This document shows positions 9,234 through 36,061 of a stretch of 64,000 bases of DNA, in pieces; position 1 is the first letter of the stretch, and every line of letters starts with the position of its first letter. A model generated the notes under the pieces. The model did not search any database, was not told the DNA's origin, and worked only from the letters and a program-made list of their open reading frames with translations. A program made the translations under genes and the position numbers. The stretch spans positions 62,001-126,000 of the forward strand of contig JAADHU010000028.1 in assembly GCA_013151645.1 (NCBI GenBank). Reading direction: 5' to 3'. The stretch comes from Gammaproteobacteria bacterium. Its GTDB lineage: Bacteria; Pseudomonadota; Gammaproteobacteria; Steroidobacterales; Woeseiaceae.

Positions 9234-9767
9234 ATGCTATTAATGATCGACATGAACAAGACAAAAGGCTTCACCTTACTGGAATTGCTGATCACGTTGG
9301 CCATCGTTGCGATCGTCGTATCGGTCGGCGTGCCCAGTTTTCGCGGCATTATTATGGACAATCGACTGGTCACTCAAACCAATCAATTTGTCAGATCGAT
9401 CAATTTGACCCGCAGTGCGGCGGTTCGTTACCAACGCAACGCGATTCTCTGCGTTAGCGCGAATTACAACGCGGCCGTTCCGACCTGCTCCGCCGGTACG
9501 GACTGGTCGAACGGGTGGATAATCTGGGTCGACAAAGATCGTGATTTGGCCACGGACGCCAATGAGATTATTTCGGTTTTCGGTCCGCTCGCAGATAGTA
9601 CAACCTTCACGAGTTTGGCTGTCAGTCAATTCTCATACAGCGCCCGCGGGTTTCTCGTCGCCGGCGATGATCTGAGTGTGTGTGACAGCCGTAGCGGAGA
9701 AACAGGACGACTGATACGCGTCAACCCGACCGGCCGAACCCACATTTCGACACAAGGTTGCAGCTGA
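9234..9767 (+). CDS. fimT: Type IV pilus minor pilin FimT (GspH-like)
   Basis: The prepilin peptidase site is 'TKG/FTLLELLITLAIVAIVVSVGVPSF', with Phe +1 and Glu +5. The C-terminal part has the GspH/FimT fold pattern, including 'NGWIIWVDKDRDLATDANE' and 'FSARGF/GRLIRVNPTGR'-type ends. FimT is a minor pilin; in some species it binds DNA during natural transformation. Several starts are possible (GTG 9183, ATG 9234, 9243 or 9252). ATG 9234 or 9243 gives a normal leader behind the G-rich stretch at 9227-9231. It heads the seven-gene operon ending with pilE at 16334 and overlaps pilV by one base (TGATG). Confidence 0.88.
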   Translation: MLLMIDMNKTKGFTLLELLITLAIVAIVVSVGVPSFRGIIMDNRLVTQTNQFVRSINLTRSAAVRYQRNAILCVSANYNAAVPTCSAGTDWSNGWIIWVDKDRDLATDANEIISVFGPLADSTTFTSLAVSQFSYSARGFLVAGDDLSVCDSRSGETGRLIRVNPTGRTHISTQGCS

Positions 9768-10321
9768 TGGGCACTTCCTTGCCGGCGATGAGGAGAAAAG
9801 ATCTCCCCCGTATGACGAACCGACAAGGCGGATTCACGCTGATCGAGGTTATGGTTTCGACGGTGGTGCTTGCCGTAGGGCTGCTCGGACTTGCAGGGTT
9901 GCAGGCCGCATCATTGAGCAGCAACCAGAGCGCATTCATGCGCACACAGGCATCGGCGCTCGCCTATGACCTCGCTGATCGTATGCGATCGAATGTTGCT
10001 GGCGGTACAAGCGGATTCTATGCAGCAGGAACAGCCAGCTATTCACCCGGTTGCAGCTCGACTGCCGGATGCTCCCCCCTGCAAATGGCACAAAACGATC
10101 TCGCCGAATGGAATGCGGCGATCACCACCTATCTGCCTCTCGGAGAGGGCCTTGTTTGTACTGATAGTACACCGGGCGACGGCGCTTCAGTTTTGAATGC
10201 GCAGTGCGACGGCGTTGGTAACCTGCTCTCAATCAAGATCTGGTGGGATGACGACCGTGACGGAGTCATCAATTTGAGCCCGACAAACACCGAGCGATTC
10301 GTAATAAGTTTCCGCTTGTGA
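9767..10321 (+). CDS. pilV: Type IV pilus minor pilin PilV
   Basis: The protein has a prepilin site 'QGG/FTLIEVMVSTVVLAVGLLGLAGLQ' and the PilV hallmark right after the helix: 'SNQSAFMRTQASALAYDLADRMRSN'. The domain ends with 'IKIWWDDDRDG', also typical of PilV. PilV is part of the inner-membrane priming complex. The ATG at 9767 overlaps the fimT stop. Internal ATGs at 9788 and 9812 would give shorter leaders, but neither has a well placed ribosome site. The stop overlaps pilW in a GTGATG arrangement. Confidence 0.88.
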   Translation: MGTSLPAMRRKDLPRMTNRQGGFTLIEVMVSTVVLAVGLLGLAGLQAASLSSNQSAFMRTQASALAYDLADRMRSNVAGGTSGFYAAGTASYSPGCSSTAGCSPLQMAQNDLAEWNAAITTYLPLGEGLVCTDSTPGDGASVLNAQCDGVGNLLSIKIWWDDDRDGVINLSPTNTERFVISFRL

Positions 10322-11337
10322 TGTCGCACCCGGTACTGCAAGGAAAACGGTTATCGTTCGAATCGGGCGTCGGCCTGGTTGAGGTGATGATCGCGATGTT
10401 ACTCGGCCTGCTCTTACTCGCCGGCGTCATGCAGGTTTTCTCCTCTTCGCGCCAAACCTATCGTGTACACGAGGCCGTTTCCAGAATGCAGGAAGACGGG
10501 CGCATGGCACTGGAGGTGATTTCCCGGGACATCCGCATGGCCGACTTTTGGGGGTGCGCCGGACAAATCAGTAACGTGGTGAATAACCTCAACAATGCAA
10601 ATGCCGGCTTCATCGATTTCGGCCAGGGAGGCATTGGCGGTACGAACAGTGCCGGGGGCGCACCGGACACGCTGATTCTCCGCGGCGGCATCAACGAAGG
10701 CCTGTCCATTGCCGCACCCTTCGGACCACTGCCCTCCGCGACCCTCGGAATAGCGGCTAACAACGGCTTACAGCAGGGCGATATCGTCATTGTCAGCGAC
10801 TGCACCAGTGCTGACATTTTCCAGATAAGCAATGCCAACCCGGATGGCTCTGGCCAACTCGTGCACAATACGGGCGCCGCGGTGACTCCCGGAAACTTCA
10901 ACGCAACAAACCCGGGTTGTCCTGGTGCGAATGCACATTGCCTGTCAAAGGTTTACGGCGGAGATGCCAGCGTATTCAGTACCCAGCAAGTCATCTACAC
11001 ATTGGGACCTGGCTCCGAAGGCCAACCGGCCTTGTTCAGAAATGGCCTGGAATTCATTGATGGCATTGAGGACTTCCAGGTTCTCTATGGTGAAGATACT
11101 GACGCCCTGGGTTCCGTCGGGTTTGGTATTGCGAATTACTACGTTGGAGCCGATCAGGTTGTCGACATGAATAACGTGGTCAGCATTCGCTTCGCCGTTG
11201 TCATGCGTTCGTATGCGGATAACCTGAGTGGTGCTGCGGCACAGAGCTACAACCTATTGGGCGCCAATGTCACTCCCGCCGACACTCGCTTGCGGCAGGT
11301 TTACACCAGCACCGTCACGGTCCGTAACCGGATCTGA
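10321..11337 (+). CDS. pilW: Type IV pilus minor pilin PilW (copy B)
   Basis: The 338-residue protein has the prepilin motif 'ESG/VGLVEVMIAMLLGLLLLAGVMQVF', where +1 is Val and Glu +5 is kept. The PilW hallmark follows: 'RVHEAVSRMQEDGRMALEVISRDIRMADFWGC'. The C-terminal part contains 'EGLEFIDGIEDFQVLYGED'-type sequence and ends 'RLRQVYTSTVTVRNRI'. Translation can start at ATG 10321, overlapping the pilV stop (TGATG), or at a GTG one codon earlier. It works with PilV, PilX and PilE. Confidence 0.9.
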   Translation: MSHPVLQGKRLSFESGVGLVEVMIAMLLGLLLLAGVMQVFSSSRQTYRVHEAVSRMQEDGRMALEVISRDIRMADFWGCAGQISNVVNNLNNANAGFIDFGQGGIGGTNSAGGAPDTLILRGGINEGLSIAAPFGPLPSATLGIAANNGLQQGDIVIVSDCTSADIFQISNANPDGSGQLVHNTGAAVTPGNFNATNPGCPGANAHCLSKVYGGDASVFSTQQVIYTLGPGSEGQPALFRNGLEFIDGIEDFQVLYGEDTDALGSVGFGIANYYVGADQVVDMNNVVSIRFAVVMRSYADNLSGAAAQSYNLLGANVTPADTRLRQVYTSTVTVRNRI

Positions 11338-11356
11338 CTTGAAAAAGGCGAATCGT

Positions 11357-11911
11357 ATGAAATCGACATATGCATCAGGCTCGACATTTGCTCGACCGAA
11401 TCGGCAAAAGGGCGCAGTACTCGCGGTCAGTCTGCTGTTACTGCTGGTCCTGACGTTGATCGGTGTAAGCAGTATGCAGGGAACATTGCTCGAAGAGAAA
11501 ATGGCGGGCAATGCCAAAGATCGCAACCTTGCATTTCAGACATCGGAGTCCGGCCTCAGAGAGGCCGAAGATTTTGTTGAACAGTTGGTGAGCCTTGGCA
11601 ATTTTGATGGGTCGTCAGGCTTGTTCGGGGTTGGCGATGCCGAACCGGATTTTTCACTGGTCCAAACGTGGACTGACCCCACCCAACATGTCGTCGCCGC
11701 CAACAGCTACGGCGCGTACCAGCCGCCTCAGTACCTCATAAAACGATTCACAACCGTGACGGGTACCGAAGGCGCTATGAATTTGTCCGGTTACGGAGAC
11801 AACAAAGGCACCGGAGATGTGACGATATTCAAGATCACTGCGCGCGGCACTGGCGGCGGCAATGATTCTGCAGAGGTAATTCTGCGCAGCAACTACGGTC
11901 GAATACTTTAG
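11357..11911 (+). CDS. pilX: Type IV pilus assembly protein PilX (copy B)
   Basis: The 184-residue protein has a leader of ~20 residues, the PilX helix 'GAVLAVSLLLLLVLTLIGVSSMQ', and the family hallmark 'LEEKMAGNAKDRNLAFQTSESGLREAE'. It is predicted to be a priming-complex minor pilin. The frame is open further upstream inside pilW, but the ATG at 11357 gives the normal N-terminus. It follows pilW after 19 bp and precedes pilY1 by 19 bp. Confidence 0.88.
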   Translation: MKSTYASGSTFARPNRQKGAVLAVSLLLLLVLTLIGVSSMQGTLLEEKMAGNAKDRNLAFQTSESGLREAEDFVEQLVSLGNFDGSSGLFGVGDAEPDFSLVQTWTDPTQHVVAANSYGAYQPPQYLIKRFTTVTGTEGAMNLSGYGDNKGTGDVTIFKITARGTGGGNDSAEVILRSNYGRIL

Positions 11912-11930
11912 CGGTTCGGAAGAGAAAATC

Positions 11931-14900
11931 ATGATGACAGCAATGAATATCAAGACTACCAAAACAGGAACCATCGCATCACTGTTGACTTGCGCACTAC
12001 TGAGTCCCCTGGTCGCTTCATCGGCACCCGGTACAATCGCCGATTCACCGCTATTTCTGAGTAATTCCGTCGAGCCCAATGTCCTGTTCATGATCGACGA
12101 CTCCGGCAGCATGGACTGGGGCCTGATGACGCCCGAAGATAGCGGCATCATGAACGTCGGATGTGGATACTTTTACGCACAGCCCGCACCCGACAACGAT
12201 TATTTCTGGGTATTGGCGACTGAAGAAGAACTCATGAACCAGGGCGTCGCGGCACCCTATGGTGGCGTATGGCGTGCGTGGAACAAGGATTACAACCGAC
12301 TTTATTACGACCCGACAGTCACCTACTCACCATGGCCGGGTGAAGACAGCAATAGTGCTCTCTACGCCGACGCCAATCCTGCTGCCGCCCTGTTCAACCC
12401 GTACACACCCGGCGCCGGTGCACAGGACCTGACTACGAATACCACTTACCAGACCGACTATTGTCCAGGCGGTGGCGGAATGTTTACGGTCAATAATTAC
12501 TACCCGGCACGTTATTACACCTGGACGGACAGCGATACCGATGGCCTCGTCGACGACGATGATGCACATACACTGGTCGAAATCCGTGCAGGCGCTACCG
12601 TGTATATCGGTGGCATCAATCGCTCGGATTGCGCCGCAGCTCCTTCTTGTACGTACAACGAAGAAATTCAAAATTTTGCGAACTGGTTTAGCTACTACCG
12701 CAAACGCGAGTATGTTGCCAAGGCCGCGTACGGTCAGGTAATCGCCAGCGCCAGAAACTTGCGCATGGGCATGGTAACCATGCACAACAACGCTGGCGTG
12801 AACACTGCAATCGGCACCATGAATCAGGATCCAACAACGGGTGCCAAGGGCAACCTGCTGGATTCGCTTTACTCTTTCCAGGCATCGGGCGGCACACCGT
12901 TGCGAACGACTCTGGACAACGGTGGAAGATACCTCGGCTGCGAAGCGAATAATTTTTTCGGCGGTTGCCCGGCATTGCCTGTGAGCACCGGTGGGGAATG
13001 CCAGCAAAACTTTACCGTGCTCATGACGGATGGCTTTTACAACGGTGCATTCAATGGAGTCGGCAACACCGATGGCGATAACAGTTCTAATTGGGACAGT
13101 GGCGGCAATGGGCCGTACGGAGACGGAGAATCCGATACGCTGGCCGACATTGCCATGGAGTACTATGAAAATGACCTGAGACCCGGAGTCGCCAACAATC
13201 TGAGCCCGCCGCCCGGAGGCATCGACGACAACAAAGCACAGCATATGGTTACCTATTCCGTTGCATTCGGCGTCAATGGCACGGTGACATCAATGCCGGC
13301 CGATACTACGAGCCCCTTCAACTGGCCGGTCCCGAACAACGATCCGGCGCGTATCGATGATCTGCGTCATTCCGCCTGGAACGGTCGCGGCGATTTTCTG
13401 AGTGCGCAAAATCCCACCCAGCTCATTGCGGGGCTACGTGGCGCACTCCGCTCCATTCAGGGACGCGTGGGCTCAGCTTCATCCGTTGCATTCAATACCG
13501 GATCACTGAGCACCAATTCCGAGGTATATCTCGCTTTGTTTAACAGCGAACGCTGGAGCGGCAATCTGCTTGCGTTCGGTCTGGATCCGAACACTGGCGC
13601 AATCAATGCGGCCCGCAGCTGGGCCGCTGGCTCCGAGCTCAGTGGACGCGACTTAAACTCAAGCCCGCGTACTATTCTTACTTTCGACGGCGCCGATGGT
13701 ATTGCATTCGACTGGTCGCAACTAACAGCGGCGCAGAAAAACGATTTGCGAACGAACGCCAGCGGGGCGCTGGACAACGAAGCAACGGGAATGGCCAGGC
13801 ACGGCTATGTCCGCGGCGATCGCGGTTGCGAAATTTCTTCGTCCGACGCCTGCAACTACAACGACGGATCGAATACGTTTAACACCAAGCAGCTCCGGGA
13901 ACGGGCAAGTCGACTGGGAGACATCGTCCATTCAGGCCCGGTATTTGCAGGCGCGCCGGAGTCAAACTGGCCGGATGTCGCACCGTTTCCGACGGGCACC
14001 GGTCAATCCTATACCGAGTTTCGGACGACTAACGCCACTCGAGCCGGCATTGTCTACGTCGGCGGCAACGACGGCATTCTGCACGGCTTTTCGCAGGCGA
14101 GCGGCCAGGAACTGCTGGGTTACATTCCCAGCAGCCTGTTCTCTACCAATGCGTCTGACGGCTTGCACGTGCTCAGCGATCCTTCCTATACCCATCGTTA
14201 CTACGTGGACTCGACAGTCTCCCTGGCGGACGCATACGTCAAGACAACCAGCGGCGGCAGCGCGAGTTGGAAGACCATTCTGGTCGGCGGATTGCGCGGC
14301 GGCGGCCGGCAACTCTATGCACTGGATGTAACCGATCCGAGCACTTTTTCTGAATCCGGTCTCAACCCGGCCAGGACGGTCATGTGGGAATTCACCAGCG
14401 CGGATGACAGCGACCTTGGAAACACGTTTGGTCGTCCGTCGATTGTTCCCCTCGAAGGCCCTGGAAATACGATTCGCTGGGCGGCTGTGGTCGGCAACGG
14501 TTACAACGATGCCGGCAGCGGCGAGGCCAAGCTATTTATTCTTTTTCTGGAAGGCGGTCTTGATGGTACATGGACAGCCGGCTCCGACTATATCGAAATC
14601 ACGACGAAAACCGGTGACACAACGAATCGAAATGGTTTGTCAACACCGGCGGTAATCGATTCGGATGGCGACGGTCTTGCAGACCGAGCCTACGCCGGAG
14701 ACCTGGAAGGAAACCTCTGGGCATTCGACCTGTCCGGTTCGAACACAGGTAGCTGGGATGTGGACTACAAACAGGGGCAGACGCCCAAGCCGCTGTTCAC
14801 TGCACCGTCGAATCAGCAAATCACGACGACACCAGTCATTACCCGTAACAAGACGATCGGCACCTCACCGTCGAATGCACCCAACACAATGGTCATTTTT

Positions 14901-29182: not shown

Positions 29183-30580
29183 ATGAACGAGACCATTCAG
29201 CGGCATAAGACGCTGGGAAAGACGGACATGGTGCTATTCACCGTGTCGGCCATCTTGCTGCTGGATACGCTTGCAGCAGCGGCTTCGATCGGTGCGTCCA
29301 GCATTTTCTGGTGGCTGTTCCTCGGCCTGATCTTTTTCCTGCCCTTTGCGATGATATGCGCCGAGATGGGGTGCACCTATGCAGAGCAAGGTGGCATATA
29401 CGCGTGGGTCCGAAATGCCTTCGGCGGACGTTGGGGATCACGCGTCAGCTGGGGCTACTGGGTCAATACAGCGGTATGGATTCCCGCTATTTTCATTCTT
29501 TTCGCTGGCATCCTGAAACAACTTTTCTTACCTGGCCTGTCATTGCCAGGTCAGATTGCAATCGGGATAACGCTCCTGTGGATCACCGTTGCGCTAAATG
29601 CCATCACACTCGACATCGGCAAATGGATTCCCAACATCGGAGCAATCTTCAAGATTAGCGTCTTTATCGCCGTGATCGCCGGCGCGGTCATCTATACCCG
29701 GGAGCACGGAATGGCCAACACCATTTCATTGCAATCGATGGCGCCCAGTTGGAATTCCGGCGCACAGTACATCCCCGCAATTATCTACGGCATGCTTGGA
29801 TTCGAACTGGTAAGCGCCAGCAGCGATGAAATGATTGATCCGTCGCGGGACGTACCGCGATCCATTTTCATATCGGGCTTCATCATCATCGTGCTCTATA
29901 CGGCGGCGACAGCCGCCGTTCTTGCGGCATTGCCAGCCGATAAAATCGATTTGGTGGAGGGCTTGATGAACACCCTGAACCTTTTCTTTGACGATGGTGG
30001 TTTTGGGCGATGGTTTGTTTTGGTTCTGGGAGTTGCCACCCTCTATACATTTTTTTCAAACGGCGTTACATGGGCACTGGGCTGCAATCGAGCGGCAGCG
30101 GAAGCGGCCCAGGAAGGCGAACTTCCCGACTTTTTCGGAATTGAACACAGGACGCTCGGAACGCCGATTGGTGCTGCTATTGCCATGGGTATTTTCGGCA
30201 CACTCACGCTTCTTTTGTACGGCTTTTTATCGAACTCGAATGAGGACCTGTTTTGGTCTTTGTTCGCTTTCAGCGCCGTCATTTTCCTGCTTCCCTACAT
30301 CGCGATGCTTTTCGCGTTCATCAAATCACGTAATGTCGATACTGACGTAGTTCGACCCTACAAAGTGCCGGGCGGGAACGCGGTCGCCAAATCCCTCGCT
30401 TACGTTTGCATCGTGATTCTGGCATTGTCAGTTGCGTTGTTTATCTACACGCCCGGTGAGGGAATTCAACGGCCGGTTCTCTTCGGCGCCTTTGTCATGA
30501 TTGCCATCGGCGAAGTGCTCATTAGAGCGACTGAAAAACGTAAGTCAACAACACCTCTGAATCAAAACGAAGCTCACTAA
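29183..30580 (+). CDS. APC-superfamily amino acid/polyamine permease
   Basis: The 465-residue protein has about 12 membrane helices and the APC pattern, with 'FTVSAILLLDTLAAAASIGASS' in the first helix and 'EMGCTYAEQGGIYAWVRNAFGGRWG' after helix two. It resembles the branch containing glutamate/GABA antiporters and putrescine importers such as PuuP. Its place directly behind spuC suggests that it imports the amine used by that enzyme. Substrate and coupling ion cannot be read from the sequence. Confidence 0.85.
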   Translation: MNETIQRHKTLGKTDMVLFTVSAILLLDTLAAAASIGASSIFWWLFLGLIFFLPFAMICAEMGCTYAEQGGIYAWVRNAFGGRWGSRVSWGYWVNTAVWIPAIFILFAGILKQLFLPGLSLPGQIAIGITLLWITVALNAITLDIGKWIPNIGAIFKISVFIAVIAGAVIYTREHGMANTISLQSMAPSWNSGAQYIPAIIYGMLGFELVSASSDEMIDPSRDVPRSIFISGFIIIVLYTAATAAVLAALPADKIDLVEGLMNTLNLFFDDGGFGRWFVLVLGVATLYTFFSNGVTWALGCNRAAAEAAQEGELPDFFGIEHRTLGTPIGAAIAMGIFGTLTLLLYGFLSNSNEDLFWSLFAFSAVIFLLPYIAMLFAFIKSRNVDTDVVRPYKVPGGNAVAKSLAYVCIVILALSVALFIYTPGEGIQRPVLFGAFVMIAIGEVLIRATEKRKSTTPLNQNEAH

Positions 30581-30600: not shown

Positions 30601-30709
30601 GACGACTTGTCCAGTCAGACTAGCCATTGAGAATAACTAACAAGCTGGCGCGAAAACACAGACGACGATTGGCACACGTTACCGATACAGGGCAAGGAGG
30701 AGGAACTCG

Positions 30710-31513
30710 ATGCTGAACATGGCGAAGAAATCCATGTCGATCGGCGCAACCTTGGTAGAGGCAGGCGCATTCGCTGACGGTGAATCCGGCGGTAGGTGGC
30801 AATATGCACTCGATATCGCTCGCAACCGCGCTGAGATTGACGCGGATCCCTTCATCCCGGAGTACATGAAAGAGATTTACTACTGGGCTTACCTGAATCC
30901 CAGGAATGTACGCATGCTGGACCGGGAAACGGTCGTTAAAGTCATCCTGTGGTTTCAACACAATAGACTTCAGCGCGCCGCGTTCGCCGAACTCGAGCCG
31001 GGTCAGAAAGTATTGCAACCCGCCAGCGTTTATGGCGATTTTTGCCCCAACCTCGCCCGGCATCTGGGCCCGGACGCCGAACTGGAAATCCTCGATATCG
31101 CGCCCGTCCAGGTTCTGGGTTGTCGCAGAAAGATGGCTTCGTTGCCACAGGCGCGTGTCAATCGCGGCAATGCCGCGGATCTCGGCGAGCAACTTTACGA
31201 TGCCATTTGCTGTTACTTCCTGTTGCATGAGGTACCGCTGGAATACAAGTTTACCATCGTCCAGGAATTGCTGAATCACGTTCGCCCCGGCGGGAAAGTA
31301 GTCTTCGTCGACTACCACAAGCCGCATTGGGCCCACCCGCTGAAACCGATTACGAGCCTGGTTTTCGATACGCTGGAACCCTTCGCCAAAGATTTGTGGC
31401 GTTATCCGATTGAGACTTTCTGCAACGGCGATAAACGTTTCAACTGGCGCCAGCAAAGCTACTTTGGCGGGCTGTTTCAAAAAACCGTCGCGCAACGAAA
31501 CGGCGCTCACTGA
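30710..31513 (+). CDS. rquA: Rhodoquinone biosynthesis protein RquA
   Basis: RquA converts ubiquinone to rhodoquinone by replacing a methoxy group with an amino group. The protein is related to SAM-dependent methyltransferases. The 267-residue product carries the RquA features as I know them: 'IPEYMKEIYYWAYLNPRNVRMLDRE', 'ILWFQHNRLQRAAF', a modified SAM loop 'KVLQPASVYGDFCPNLA', and 'VFVDYHKPHWAHPLKP'. A very strong AGGAGG site precedes the ATG. frdA follows after 24 bp, and the unit continues to frdD. This context independently supports the call, since rhodoquinone's low potential suits fumarate reduction. Confidence 0.9.
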   Translation: MLNMAKKSMSIGATLVEAGAFADGESGGRWQYALDIARNRAEIDADPFIPEYMKEIYYWAYLNPRNVRMLDRETVVKVILWFQHNRLQRAAFAELEPGQKVLQPASVYGDFCPNLARHLGPDAELEILDIAPVQVLGCRRKMASLPQARVNRGNAADLGEQLYDAICCYFLLHEVPLEYKFTIVQELLNHVRPGGKVVFVDYHKPHWAHPLKPITSLVFDTLEPFAKDLWRYPIETFCNGDKRFNWRQQSYFGGLFQKTVAQRNGAH

Positions 31514-31537
31514 GAACAGCCGACGGAGGAACCCGAC

Positions 31538-33289
31538 ATGCAAATGGTATCGACAGATATTGCCATCGTCGGTGCCGGCGGCGCAGGATTACGCGCCGCG
31601 ATCGCGGCGGCTGAACACAATCCATCGCTGCGGATCGCCCTTATTTCCAAGGTCTATCCCATGCGCAGTCACACGGTGGCGGCCGAAGGCGGTGCTGCGG
31701 GGGTGATCAAGGCAGGCGACAGTCTGGACGATCACTTCAACGATACGGTGGCGGGAGGCGACTGGCTATCCGATCAGGATGCGGTCGAATTGTTCGTCGA
31801 GACCGCACCAAAGGAACTGACACAGATGGAACGCTGGGGCTGCCCCTGGAGTCGGCAAGAGGACGGTCATGTTGCCGTACGCCCCTTTGGGGGAATGAAA
31901 ATGGAACGGACCTGGTTCGCGACGGACAAGACCGGCTTTCACTTGCTGCACACCTTGTTCCAGACCTCACTCAAGTACCCGCCGATCCAGCGCTTCGACG
32001 AATACTATTGCATCGACCTGGTTGTCATTGACGGACGCTGCGAAGGCGTGGTCGCTCTGGAAATGCGCACGGGAAAACTGATCCTGTTTCAGGCCCCCGC
32101 AGTGATCATCGCAACCGGCGGTGCAGGAAGGATCTTCCCGTTTACTACCAACGGCGCGGCCAATACGGGTGACGGCATGGCGCTTGCCTATCGGCGGGGT
32201 GTGCCGCTCAAAGACATGGAGTTTGTCCAGTATCACCCCACCGGCCTGCCCGGAACCGGAATTCTGATTACCGAAGCCGCACGCGGTGAAGGAGGTATTC
32301 TGGTCAACAAAGACGGCTACCGCTATCTGCAGGACTACGACCTCGGCCCTCCAGATCCATGGCCCCGAAAAAAAGCGATGGAACTCGGGCCGCGTGATCG
32401 TCTGAGCCAGGCATTTTGGCAGGAACAACAAAAGGGCCGTACTGTTGCATGGCCAAGCGGCGACGTCGTGCACCTGGACTTACGCCACTTGGGCGAAAAG
32501 AAAATCGACGCCCGGCTGCCGCTGGTACGAGAGCTCAGCAGCACCTACGAAAACGTCGATCCGGTTCGGGAGCCGATACCGGTCCGTCCTGTCGTCCACT
32601 ACACCATGGGCGGCATCGACACTGACATCAACACGGCAACACCATTGAGCGGCCTTTTTGCAGCCGGCGAATGTGCTTGCGTGAGTATCAACGGCGCCAA
32701 TCGTCTGGGCTCAAATTCACTGACGGAGATCCTGGTTTTTGGTGCCCGTGCCGGTCGGGCCGCCGCCGAATACCGGGCCGGCAATGACGATCGCCCGAAG
32801 GAGTCCGAACTGCGCCGGCAAGCAACGAAACCCAGAAGCCGGATTGCCAATCTGATGCAAGGCGATGGCAAAGAGCAGGTATCGGTCCTGCGGCGCGAAA
32901 TGAATACTGCCATGGAGTCGGGAGCGGGAATATATCGCAGCGAAGATTCACTGCAAAGTACCTGCGAAACGCTGGAGGCACTGTGTCGGCGATACGCCAA
33001 TCTTGAATTGCAGGACAAGTCCAATGTTTACAATACCGATCTGATCCAGGCCCTGGAACTGGGGGCCATGCTCGATGTCGCACGCACGATCGCGGTCTCG
33101 GCGCTGGGCCGCACAGAGTCCCGCGGTTCTCATCAGCGCCTTGATCATGTGGAACGAGATGACGGGAATTTTCTGACTCACAGCATGGCCCGGTTTCAAG
33201 AGGGAAACGAACCCCAATTGAAATACAAACCGGTTACCATTACGAAATCCCAGCCAGCGCAGCGCGTATACGGAGGCGCAGCGAAATGA
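31538..33289 (+). CDS. frdA: Fumarate reductase flavoprotein subunit FrdA
   Basis: The 583-residue protein aligns closely with E. coli FrdA. The FAD site is '[16 protein letters not shown]', and the His that carries covalent FAD is His45 in '[10 protein letters not shown]'. Catalytic residues are in '[11 protein letters not shown]', '[12 protein letters not shown]' and '[10 protein letters not shown]'. The '[10 protein letters not shown]' signature is present and the C-terminus is 'QRVYGGAAK'. It reduces fumarate to succinate on the cytoplasmic face of the membrane as part of FrdABCD. The stop overlaps frdB by 4 bp. A reverse succinate dehydrogenase role is possible in principle, but similarity and context favour a quinol:fumarate reductase. 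Confidence 0.95.
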
Positions 33290-34029
33290 GCAGGGAGACT
33301 ATCGAGCTTGTGGTATTCCGCTACAACCCGGAAACGGATTGCGAACCTGCTTACCAACGTTATCAGATCCCCTATCACCATGACTGGTTAGTGCTCGATG
33401 CACTGAACTATGTCAAAGACCATCTTGATCGTTCATTGAGCTATCGTTGGTCCTGTCACATGGCCGTTTGCGGAAGCTGCGGCATGATGATAAACGGCGA
33501 GCCCACCCTGACCTGCAAGGCATTCGTTCGGGATTACGCGGACTCAATCCGTATCGAACCGTTGGCGAATTTTCCAGTGGAACGCGACTTGATCGTGAAT
33601 CAGGACGATTTCATGAGCAAGCTTGCGAGCGTCAAACCCTACATCATCGATACAGATGACGTGCCGTTGTCTGAAGGTGAAGAATTGCAGACACCGGCAG
33701 AGTTGGCGGTGTTCGATCAGTACACCGGATGCATTAACTGTCTGCTGTGTTATTCAGCCTGCCCGCAATATTCACTGTCCGCAGATTTTATTGGTCCCGC
33801 CGCACTGACCCTGGCCCATCGCTACAACATCGATTCCCGGGACGACGGCTTCCGGCAGCGCGAAGAGCGCGTGGGCAGCGATGACGGTGTCTGGCAGTGC
33901 AGTTTTGTGGGCGCCTGTTCCGAGGTTTGCCCGAAAGGCGTCGACCCGGCGGCCGCCATCCAGCAAGGAAAGATCACGAGTGCGGCCCACTACTTCAAGA
34001 AGCACCTGATGCCCTGGAGCGACTCATGA
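33286..34029 (+). CDS. frdB: Fumarate reductase iron-sulfur subunit FrdB
   Basis: The 247-residue protein passes electrons from quinol to FrdA. The [2Fe-2S] site is '[12 protein letters not shown]...C', and the [4Fe-4S]/[3Fe-4S] sites are in '[13 protein letters not shown]' and '[25 protein letters not shown]'. The cysteine pattern and the sequence between the sites follow E. coli FrdB closely. Start and stop overlap the neighbouring genes (ATGA at both ends), so translation is coupled. Confidence 0.95.
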
Positions 34030-34415
34030 ACACTGGGCCGCTTGTCCGCCAGATCAGCCGACGCCAATGGTGGCTGGGTGCATCCCGCTATCGTCGCTAC
34101 ATGGTACGTGAACTCACCTCACTGTTTATCGGCGCATTCGCGTTCGCGCTTATTGTGGGTTTGTGGCGACTATCTCAGGGTGCCCAGGCATTTTCTGCAT
34201 GGCTGGACGCCATGCACTCGCCGGCCGGCCTGGCGTTCAATGGAATCGCCCTGGCGGCCGCCTTGTATCACAGTGTCACGTGGTTCAATGTCGCGCCAAA
34301 AGCCATCAGCGTACGAATCGGCACCTTCAAACTACCCGATAGCATCATCAGTGGTGCCCACTACGCCGGCTGGCTGCTGGTATCAATTCTAGTCCTGTAT
34401 TTGGTGAGGGTCTGA
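34026..34415 (+). CDS. frdC: Fumarate reductase membrane anchor FrdC
   Basis: The 129-residue protein has three membrane helices and the FrdC pattern: 'RYRRYMVRELTSLF' corresponds to the E. coli stretch with the quinone-site Glu29, and 'LAAALYHSVTWFNVAPKAI' matches the conserved middle part. It anchors FrdAB and forms part of the quinol site without haem. The ATG at 34026 overlaps the frdB stop; longer frames upstream lie inside frdB. Confidence 0.92.
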   Translation: MNTGPLVRQISRRQWWLGASRYRRYMVRELTSLFIGAFAFALIVGLWRLSQGAQAFSAWLDAMHSPAGLAFNGIALAAALYHSVTWFNVAPKAISVRIGTFKLPDSIISGAHYAGWLLVSILVLYLVRV

Positions 34416-34417
34416 CG

Positions 34418-34765
34418 ATGTCCAGCCATAAGCCCGTTTTCTGGGCGCTGTTCGCAGCCGGGGGCACGCTATCTGCATTGTTGGCACCCGTTCTGATTTT
34501 CCTCATTGGTTTCGCCGTACCGCTGAACCTGATCGATCCTGAAGCGCTCGGTTTCGCCCGGGTTTCCGGTGCATTGGCCACGATTTCCATAGCGTTAACG
34601 ATGCTTGTCATCATCGTATTGTTCCTGTGGCATGCGGCTCACCGACTACGCGTTACTGCACATGATCTGGGCTGGTTCCCGGATTCCGTCGCCGTAGTGC
34701 TGTTCTACGGACTCGCTGCCGCGGGCTCGGTTGCAAGTGGCTGGTTGCTTATCGGCACAACGTAA
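34418..34765 (+). CDS. frdD: Fumarate reductase membrane anchor FrdD
   Basis: The 115-residue protein has three helices and matches FrdD: 'KPVFWALFAAGGTLSALLAPVL' at the N-terminus and 'HAAHRLRVTAHDLG' in the middle, the counterpart of 'HRMHHAMHDL' in E. coli. With FrdC it forms the membrane part and quinol site. It ends the rquA-frdABCD unit. No clear terminator follows before the convergent small gene at 34851. Confidence 0.92.
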   Translation: MSSHKPVFWALFAAGGTLSALLAPVLIFLIGFAVPLNLIDPEALGFARVSGALATISIALTMLVIIVLFLWHAAHRLRVTAHDLGWFPDSVAVVLFYGLAAAGSVASGWLLIGTT

Positions 34766-35374: not shown

Positions 35375-36061
35375 TCAGGGCGAAAGGCGCTCGATCTTCC
35401 AGCTATCTTCGTCCGCCCGGCTGTAGAGAAATCGATCGTGCAGGCGATCCGATCGGCCTTGCCAGAATTCGAACGATTGCGGCACTACCCGATAGCCGCC
35501 CCAGAAAGATGGCAGTGGCACTTTTTTGTCGGCGAACTTGCGCTTCATTTCGTCAAACTTTGCCTCAAGCAACGCTCGCGAAGTGATGACACTGCTTTGC
35601 ACGGAAACCCATGCCCCTATCTGGCTGCCACGCGGACGTGTGACGAAATAGCGCATCGTTTCCTGCGTAGAAATCTTCTCCGCCAAACCCCTGATGGCGA
35701 CCTGTCGACCCAGTACGGGCCAAAAGAACAATAGTGCAACGTTCGCATTGGCGGCAATATGAGCCGCTTTGTTGCTCGACTGGTTGGTAAAAAAGACAAA
35801 GCCTCTTTCGTCGAAATACTTGAGTAGTACCGTACGGCAGGCCGGGCGATGCCGTTCATCCACTGTCGTCAAACTCATGGCATTTGGCTCGAGTGTTTCA
35901 GTATCACAAACCTGCCGAAACCAATCCGCAAATTGCTTGACGGGATCCGCGTCAAGCTCATCGGATTCCAGGGTCATGCCCGTTGCCGACAATCTCAACG
36001 ACGACACATCCATGCCAGCATCATGACTTGAATTCGGTTCCTCGATCTTTTTATTTTTCAT
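35375..36061 (-). CDS. pdxH: Pyridoxamine 5'-phosphate oxidase
   Basis: This FMN enzyme oxidises pyridoxine- and pyridoxamine-phosphate to PLP. The 228-residue protein carries 'PNAMSLTTVDERHRPACRTVLLKYFDERGFVFFTNQSSNKAAHI', the FMN-binding core, plus 'FWPVLGRQVAIRG', 'SQIGAWVSVQSSVI' and the C-terminal signature 'PQSFEFWQGRSDRLHDRF'. The first ~25 residues are an unconserved extension. PLP serves the aminotransferases and the dehydratase encoded nearby, although a functional link is not needed. Confidence 0.95.
   Translation of the reverse strand: MKNKKIEEPNSSHDAGMDVSSLRLSATGMTLESDELDADPVKQFADWFRQVCDTETLEPNAMSLTTVDERHRPACRTVLLKYFDERGFVFFTNQSSNKAAHIAANANVALLFFWPVLGRQVAIRGLAEKISTQETMRYFVTRPRGSQIGAWVSVQSSVITSRALLEAKFDEMKRKFADKKVPLPSFWGGYRVVPQSFEFWQGRSDRLHDRFLYSRADEDSWKIERLSP

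Follow-up and report, generated by a model that had tools for sequence, protein, structure and literature searches.

A 64,000-nucleotide stretch of a gammaproteobacterial genome (Woeseiaceae; GCA_013151645.1, contig JAADHU010000028.1, positions 62,001 to 126,000 of the forward strand; hereafter the window) carries a compact operon that unites RquA, the enzyme that makes rhodoquinone from ubiquinone, with a four-part fumarate reductase (Frd) that probably uses rhodoquinone. Although rhodoquinone is well established in bacteria, the fumarate reductase that accepts it has seldom been pinned down. All five genes lie on the forward strand between 30710 and 34765, with spacings of 24, -4, -4 and 2 bases: rquA (30710..31513, 267 amino acids, aa) is followed after 24 bp by frdA, encoding the flavoprotein (31538..33289, 583 aa), whose end overlaps by 4 bp the start of frdB, encoding the iron-sulfur subunit (33286..34029, 247 aa); frdB in turn overlaps frdC by 4 bp (34026..34415, 129 aa), and frdD (34418..34765, 115 aa) begins after a gap of 2 bp, the last two genes encoding membrane anchors. 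Ribosome-binding sites were read in the sequence before rquA (AAGGAGGAGGAA, 30694..30705) and before frdA (GGAGG, 31525..31529). The initial annotation of this DNA had described these tight junctions and the ribosome site of rquA, and both the coordinates and the gene identities bear it out. Judging by the gaps and overlaps, rquA and the four frd genes are probably transcribed as a unit, and quinol donor and reductase would then be made together.

Identity of the five genes and quinones of the genome

The window RquA scores 294.6 bits against NF038261, above the curated cut-off of 175, and the gene first described as RquA-like can thus be called RquA, a placement that rests on the model score. 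In the chemistry published for this family, a methoxy group of ubiquinone is replaced by an amino group. In an alignment of 85 RquA rows, the window protein keeps residues 105-109, 173-174 and 201-203, and D129, at the first S-adenosylmethionine (SAM) aspartate (D118 in Rhodospirillum rubrum), is D in 85/85. The second SAM position (D143 in R. rubrum) is N154 in the window, where the alignment holds D in 71 rows, N in 13 and C in one; the 12 other rows with N include another locus in which rquA precedes frd. The correspondence with the R. rubrum residues was drawn from their spacing, with that protein standing outside the alignment. A double D118A/D143A mutant of RquA is dead, and the enzyme converts ubiquinone into rhodoquinone with SAM and Mn2+ (PMC9814641). 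Asn is likely tolerated at the second position.

The reductase is of the four-subunit E. coli type, with both of its anchors present. FrdA passes two fumarate reductase models (TIGR01176, 949.7 bits against a cut-off of 932.7; NF006686, 972.6 against 854) while falling below the SdhA equivalog TIGR01816 (585 against 727). Likewise, FrdB passes NF009051 (371.6 bits, cut-off 333) and FrdD passes PF02313 (104.5 against 25) and NF003977 (95.1 against 60). FrdC matches PF02300 (129.4 against 24.2) and misses the NCBIfam equivalog NF003445 (94.5 against 143 bits); it is therefore a divergent FrdC, which weakens only the claim of a close likeness to E. coli. The E. coli enzyme (PDB 1KF6, 1L0V) has the same four subunits in the same order, with 345/582 aligned FrdA residues identical to the window protein, and the window FrdB, FrdC and FrdD reach 316, 67 and 64 bits to the 1KF6 chains. 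Unlike E. coli, the window has rquA in front, and no menaquinone genes were found in its genome. The alignment keeps FrdA His45, His233, Glu246, Arg288, His356 and Arg391, which we take to be catalytic residues, His45 being presumably that of the flavin, as well as FrdC Glu30 (Glu29 without the Met) and His83. Residue numbers count the first Met; for FrdC and FrdD, the numbers customary in crystal structures are one lower.

The draft genome (3.96 Mb, 98% complete) holds one RquA above the cut-off and one FrdD. The annotation had supposed a ubiquinone-based organism and proposed a check for menaquinone genes. In agreement with it, three ubiquinone hydroxylases score above their cut-offs; no MenD does so in the draft genome (the best of six matches has 77 bits against 244), and the MqnA/MqnD family PF02621 has no match there, the other men and mqn genes not having been searched for. 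A separate succinate dehydrogenase (SDH) locus encodes two Sdh_cyt anchors, an SdhA (984 bits against 727) and an SdhB (368 against 228, the subfamily cut-off), and its flavoprotein passes the SdhA equivalog and misses the fumarate reductase ones, the reverse of the window FrdA; Frd is therefore a second complex II. The UbiU/UbiV family PF01136 (U32) was not found in this 98% complete genome, although it matched in 8/14 control genomes, E. coli among them, and matches both UbiU and UbiV of another member of the Woeseiaceae (G011), which has both genes. The organism thus looks like a ubiquinone user with a separate SDH, for which only the oxygen-requiring route to ubiquinone was found, and its ubiquinone, hence its rhodoquinone, may therefore need oxygen for synthesis. 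In a published survey the oxygen-free route is reported for 73/84 genomes with rquA and menaquinone for five (PMC11707229); measured against those figures, the window genome, in which no UbiU/UbiV was found, is among the less typical genomes that bear rquA.

Linkage of rquA and frd in other genomes

RquA relatives were taken from a scan of genome contigs, the best 80 of 295 being kept by likeness to the window RquA and its relatives, so that the linkage proportion is not valid for all RquA. Together with the window and three further loci (G042, G126, G256) they give 84 distinct loci (L017, L018, L019 and L021 duplicate named ones), in 16 of which rquA abuts an frd operon, 11 times as the first gene and five times as the last, with three more having the two within 3 kb. 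These counts are lower bounds, as 17 of the 65 remaining loci have a flank shorter than 1.5 kb. Within the 80 alone, ten are rquA-first (L027, L029, L030, L032, L033, L035, L037, L041, L053, L056), three have rquA directly after frdABCD (L058, L063, L067, joined in the larger set by G126 and G256) and three are within 3 kb (L073, L076, L078). The contig ends within frdA or frdB in L033, L035 and L041, and frdA is spread over two frames in L029. Gene order and strand are as in the window in L037 (the Woeseiaceae genome G011), L035 (G002), L033, L041, L053 and L056.

Closer to home, RquA occurs in five of 60 genomes of relatives, the window's own included. G002 has rquA-frdA and then the contig end, and G011 has rquA-frdABCD and a second rquA adjoining genes for a Crp/Fnr-family regulator, ubiD, ubiV and ubiU (L018); no Frd lies near rquA in G042 and G051, over the 14 and 19.5 kb read. 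Four genomes in all carry one rquA linked to frdABCD and another elsewhere (L037/L043, L032/L047, L030/L048, L063/L055). Two loci were not counted as linked: L084, with an SDH on the opposite strand, and L074, where a distant complex II flavoprotein and iron-sulfur pair (about 9458-12207), 36 and 32% identical to Frd, follows rquA by about 0.8 kb. A search of 72,556 plasmid records at E 1e-20 gave no rquA match.

Since many further contigs have rquA next to frd genes, the adjacency is more than chance, and its recurrence across Alpha- and Gammaproteobacteria sustains the annotation's proposal that linkage is a genetic argument for rhodoquinone as the donor of this Frd. Operons in two classes and two gene orders would be a direct genetic answer to which reductase takes it. 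The two orders, together with a quick RquA tree that spreads the linked RquAs over separate branches, suggest that the linkage was formed more than once. Strict joint inheritance of RquA and Frd was considered and is not claimed: the RquA tree is weakly supported, the rquA-first loci are scattered on it (nine changes for 11 rows, as low in 35/500 shuffles), and the row nearest the window RquA (L024) has no Frd within its 16.6 kb. The tree leaves out the borderline RquA of genome G268 (L157), which the 85-row residue count includes; locus L160 played no part in the comparisons.

Frd was also traced without regard to rquA in a sample of the class (369 genomes), in which PF02313 matched in 28 and scored above the cut-off in 18. 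Eleven were kept as clear Frd, ten with more than 93 bits and G399 with 32.7 bits, its frdD being cut by the contig end beside an adjoining frdABC; the 17 others were set aside as too weak, being partial matches of at most 26.6 bits, seven of which reach or exceed the cut-off, and may be SDH anchors. RquA is present in three of the eleven (G000, which is the window genome, G126 and G256) and borderline in one (G268, 173.4 against 175 bits), MenD in four (G309, G421, G378, G399), and neither in three (G318, G388, G207), which also lack a detected MqnA; none has both. Such an Frd thus need not accompany a visible low-potential quinone pathway, which tells against a strict rule. The three genomes with neither pathway (L149, L150 and L151, respectively) have all of FrdABCD, and FrdC-83 is Asn in G318 and G207.

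The Frd tree and the quinone-site residues

A tree, read as unrooted, was built from the joined FrdA-D of 31 Frd rows and the SDH of the window genome; L035 was excluded as too short. Rows were labelled menaquinone by MenD (G309, G421, G378, G399, E. coli), and for Rhodococcus, Aeromonas and Proteus by our assumption. The 18 rquA-linked Frds, that of the window among them, fall outside a branch of 12 rows supported at 100/100, which holds seven menaquinone-labelled Proteobacteria (E. coli included), the three genomes with neither pathway, Halomonas and G268, and no rquA-linked operon. Rhodococcus, the eighth menaquinone-labelled row, has a long branch and is placed beside the linked rows. When the SDH is left off, the data do not reject a single clade for these 18 Frds with linked rquA (AU p 0.397). 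The annotation's suggestion that an E. coli-type enzyme was adapted locally to rhodoquinol does not seem to hold, since the window Frd groups instead with other rquA-linked Frds, on the other side of the tree from E. coli. Of the ten rquA-first operons on the tree, all but L030 and L032 share a single supported branch (96/91); these eight come from both Alpha- and Gammaproteobacteria, which fits a transfer between the classes. The relatives suggest that the pair marks a separate Frd branch kept together with rhodoquinone.

The annotation had proposed a comparison of the quinone-site residues of FrdC and FrdD. FrdC Glu30, FrdD His81-Arg82 and FrdB Lys229, the last presumably a residue with a functional role, are kept in every covering row of the Frd alignment, and the basic mechanism should therefore be the same; for FrdC Glu30, a functional role has been described (PMC5907181). 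Other positions separate the rquA-linked from the menaquinone-labelled rows. FrdB-59, in the 2Fe-2S loop by its E. coli position, is His in 18/18 linked rows, the window included, and Arg in 8/8 menaquinone-labelled and 4/4 other rows. FrdB-36 is Val or Leu in the linked rows against Ser or Ala, with no residue shared between the groups. FrdD-85 is Val, Ile or Thr in 17/17 rows from genomes with rquA (16 linked and the borderline G268), whereas the menaquinone-labelled rows have His in six and Phe in one of seven, and the other rows Tyr, Tyr, Leu and His. At FrdD-19, Ala stands in 16/16 linked rows, against Gly or Ser in each of the 12 others, that of G268 among them. The window has Val and Ala at these two FrdD positions, where E. 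coli has His and Gly. FrdD-10 and FrdD-97 also share no residue between the groups, but vary much within them.

A model of the Mycobacterium tuberculosis enzyme places FrdD Trp20, Phe23, Ser24, His84, Arg85 and Phe88 near the quinol site (PMC5907181). Matched by the His-Arg pair, these would be E. coli positions 15, 18, 19, 81, 82 and 85, so that FrdD-85 would correspond to Rv1555 Phe88, in keeping with the Phe of Rhodococcus. The position on the tree and the differing residues suggest a rhodoquinol-type Frd, but the differences follow few phylogenetic splits; the residues are candidates for quinol choice, short of proof, and make a small set that can be tested for it. The Frd of G268 groups with the menaquinone rows and yet has Ile at FrdD-85, with Gly kept at FrdD-19. 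Its borderline rquA (L157, 2707-3780) stands between a gene for a Crp-family regulator and that for citrate synthase.

Rhodoquinol as the probable donor and the alternatives

The presence of RquA, ubiquinone hydroxylases and a separate SDH, together with the lack of a detected MenD or MqnA, makes rhodoquinone the likely donor for Frd. We consider it highly probable, from sequence comparison, that the five genes are a rhodoquinone-fumarate respiration operon whose Frd belongs with those accompanied by rquA and not in the menaquinone branch that E. coli exemplifies. RquA would make rhodoquinone from ubiquinone, complex I or another dehydrogenase would reduce it, and FrdABCD would oxidise the rhodoquinol at a membrane site and reduce fumarate to succinate. 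Rhodoquinone would be derived from ubiquinone whose synthesis uses oxygen, an arrangement that would be apt for a bacterium that meets transient anoxia.

Several observations weigh against this reading. The genome is a draft in 83 contigs; three of the 11 Frd genomes of the class sample yielded no RquA, MenD or MqnA; the window RquA has N154 where R. rubrum carries D143; and loci with rquA first are dispersed over the RquA tree, so that the history of RquA is no clear match for that of Frd. Adding the SDH, on its very long branch, as an outgroup places the root within the linked rows; the menaquinone branch may thus lie inside their diversity, and either side may be the older. The residue differences need only two to three changes on the tree, and a sign test of FrdD-85 against RquA has only two to three independent pairs, which is too few. 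Additionally, the best FNR box before the window rquA has three mismatches, a level that 71% of 300 random sequences with a similar dinucleotide composition also attain, and a scan for promoters and terminators gave fewer matches than in shuffles, with no promoter-like match before rquA. The joint induction at low oxygen that the annotation had foreseen is thus left without backing, and oxygen control is not claimed for the window. Elsewhere an FNR box is better than chance at about 0.05 before rquA in L029, L030 and L032 and before frdA in L063 and L073, and not in the other loci tested.

Some of these points would also suit a complex that works chiefly as a ubiquinone-linked succinate dehydrogenase, rquA serving other enzymes and the linkage reflecting only shared regulation. 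Complex II enzymes can work in both directions, the three class-sample genomes keep this Frd without a detected RquA, MenD or MqnA, and rquA adjoins genes for electron transfer flavoprotein-quinone oxidoreductase (ETF-QO) or ubiU/ubiV elsewhere, so that it is not tied to Frd alone. This is nevertheless improbable: the genome already has an SDH, the two flavoproteins sort oppositely against the SdhA and fumarate reductase equivalogs, and rquA and frd adjoin in two orders on distinct RquA branches. It is more improbable still that RquA is inactive or acts on another substrate, with Frd drawing ubiquinol from a highly reduced pool. The replacement of the second SAM aspartate by N154 speaks for it; against it stand the score to the NF038261 equivalog, the retention of D129 and of the three conserved segments, and the same Asn in 12 other rows, that of another rquA-first locus included.

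A milder alternative, which may hold alongside rhodoquinone-fumarate respiration and denies only a specialised quinone pocket, is an ordinary menaquinol-type Frd that tolerates rhodoquinol, the residue differences being neutral marks of lineage. The invariance of FrdC Glu30, FrdD His81-Arg82 and FrdB Lys229 and the few changes that the differing positions require both favour it, and it keeps a minor share of the probability, doubtful but not slight. The mycobacterial model (PMC5907181) puts both FrdD-85 and FrdD-19 close to the quinol site, and their residues do not overlap between linked and menaquinone-labelled rows, which argues against neutrality; the Ile at FrdD-85 of G268, in spite of its place among the menaquinone rows, does so too, but for its Gly at FrdD-19.

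Beyond rhodoquinone-fumarate respiration at this locus, a bolder proposal, to which we give even chances, is that the alignments delimit a distinct rhodoquinol-type FrdABCD branch, with a quinone pocket of its own (FrdD-85 Val/Ile/Thr for His/Phe, FrdD-19 Ala) and a His for Arg by the FrdB 2Fe-2S cluster, that would have passed, together with rquA, between Alpha- and Gammaproteobacteria as a respiration cassette. In a wider view, rquA would be a plug-in beside whichever quinone enzyme should use rhodoquinone, be it Frd, ETF-QO or the oxygen-free ubiquinone genes.

The proximity of rquA to complex II is not new in principle. Stairs et al. (2018) placed rquA within 15 genes of those for complex I, II or III in many bacteria and suggested operons with complex II (PMC5953543); the RquA family, with that of R. 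rubrum, and the proximity are common to those loci and the window. Section 8 of that paper speaks of proximity and names no Frd type, whereas the present analysis adds an immediate rquA-frdABCD operon, its recurrence and the Frd branch. Likewise, the gammaproteobacterium Candidatus Thiosymbion oneisti is described as having frdABCD and rquA without menaquinone, like the window, and its frdA is raised in anoxic sulfidic conditions (PMC8269255). FrdA has been reported in Woeseiaceae genomes, in an account that names no quinone for it (PMC8443593), and the words fumarate, quinone and frd do not occur in another paper on the family (PMC12175321). Searches confined to an open-licence library yielded no report of an rquA-frdABCD operon or of a rhodoquinol-type FrdABCD branch beyond the papers cited; what may be new is this branch and the residues that go with it.

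Other neighbours of rquA recur as well. In five loci of Kiloniellaceae (L040, L044, L049, L052, L092) an ETF-QO gene comes immediately after rquA and on its strand; in L054 such a gene directly precedes rquA and in L048 it is about 4.5 kb away; the L044 protein was identified by Pfam PF05187 and PF21162 and the rest by BLAST to it. This suggests ETF-QO as a further bacterial client of rhodoquinone. Additionally, rquA stands beside ubiU and ubiV, of the oxygen-free ubiquinone route, in L018/L043, L038, L042, L062 and L087, with ubiD in 4/5; in L018 both UbiU and UbiV score above the cut-offs of their NCBIfam equivalogs, and the others were named by BLAST to them.

A foreign origin of the operon was considered on base composition and set aside, its GC of 0.53-0.59 against 0.51-0.57 around it giving no clear break. 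The operon seems to stand alone in the window, because none of the four scanned neighbours (an aminotransferase, a permease and members of the PNPOx and PALP families) is respiratory. Upstream, the amino-acid permease gene lies on the same strand and ends at 30580, 129 bp from rquA; downstream, the next assigned gene, of the PNPOx family (35375-36061), is on the opposite strand, as are the further assigned genes.

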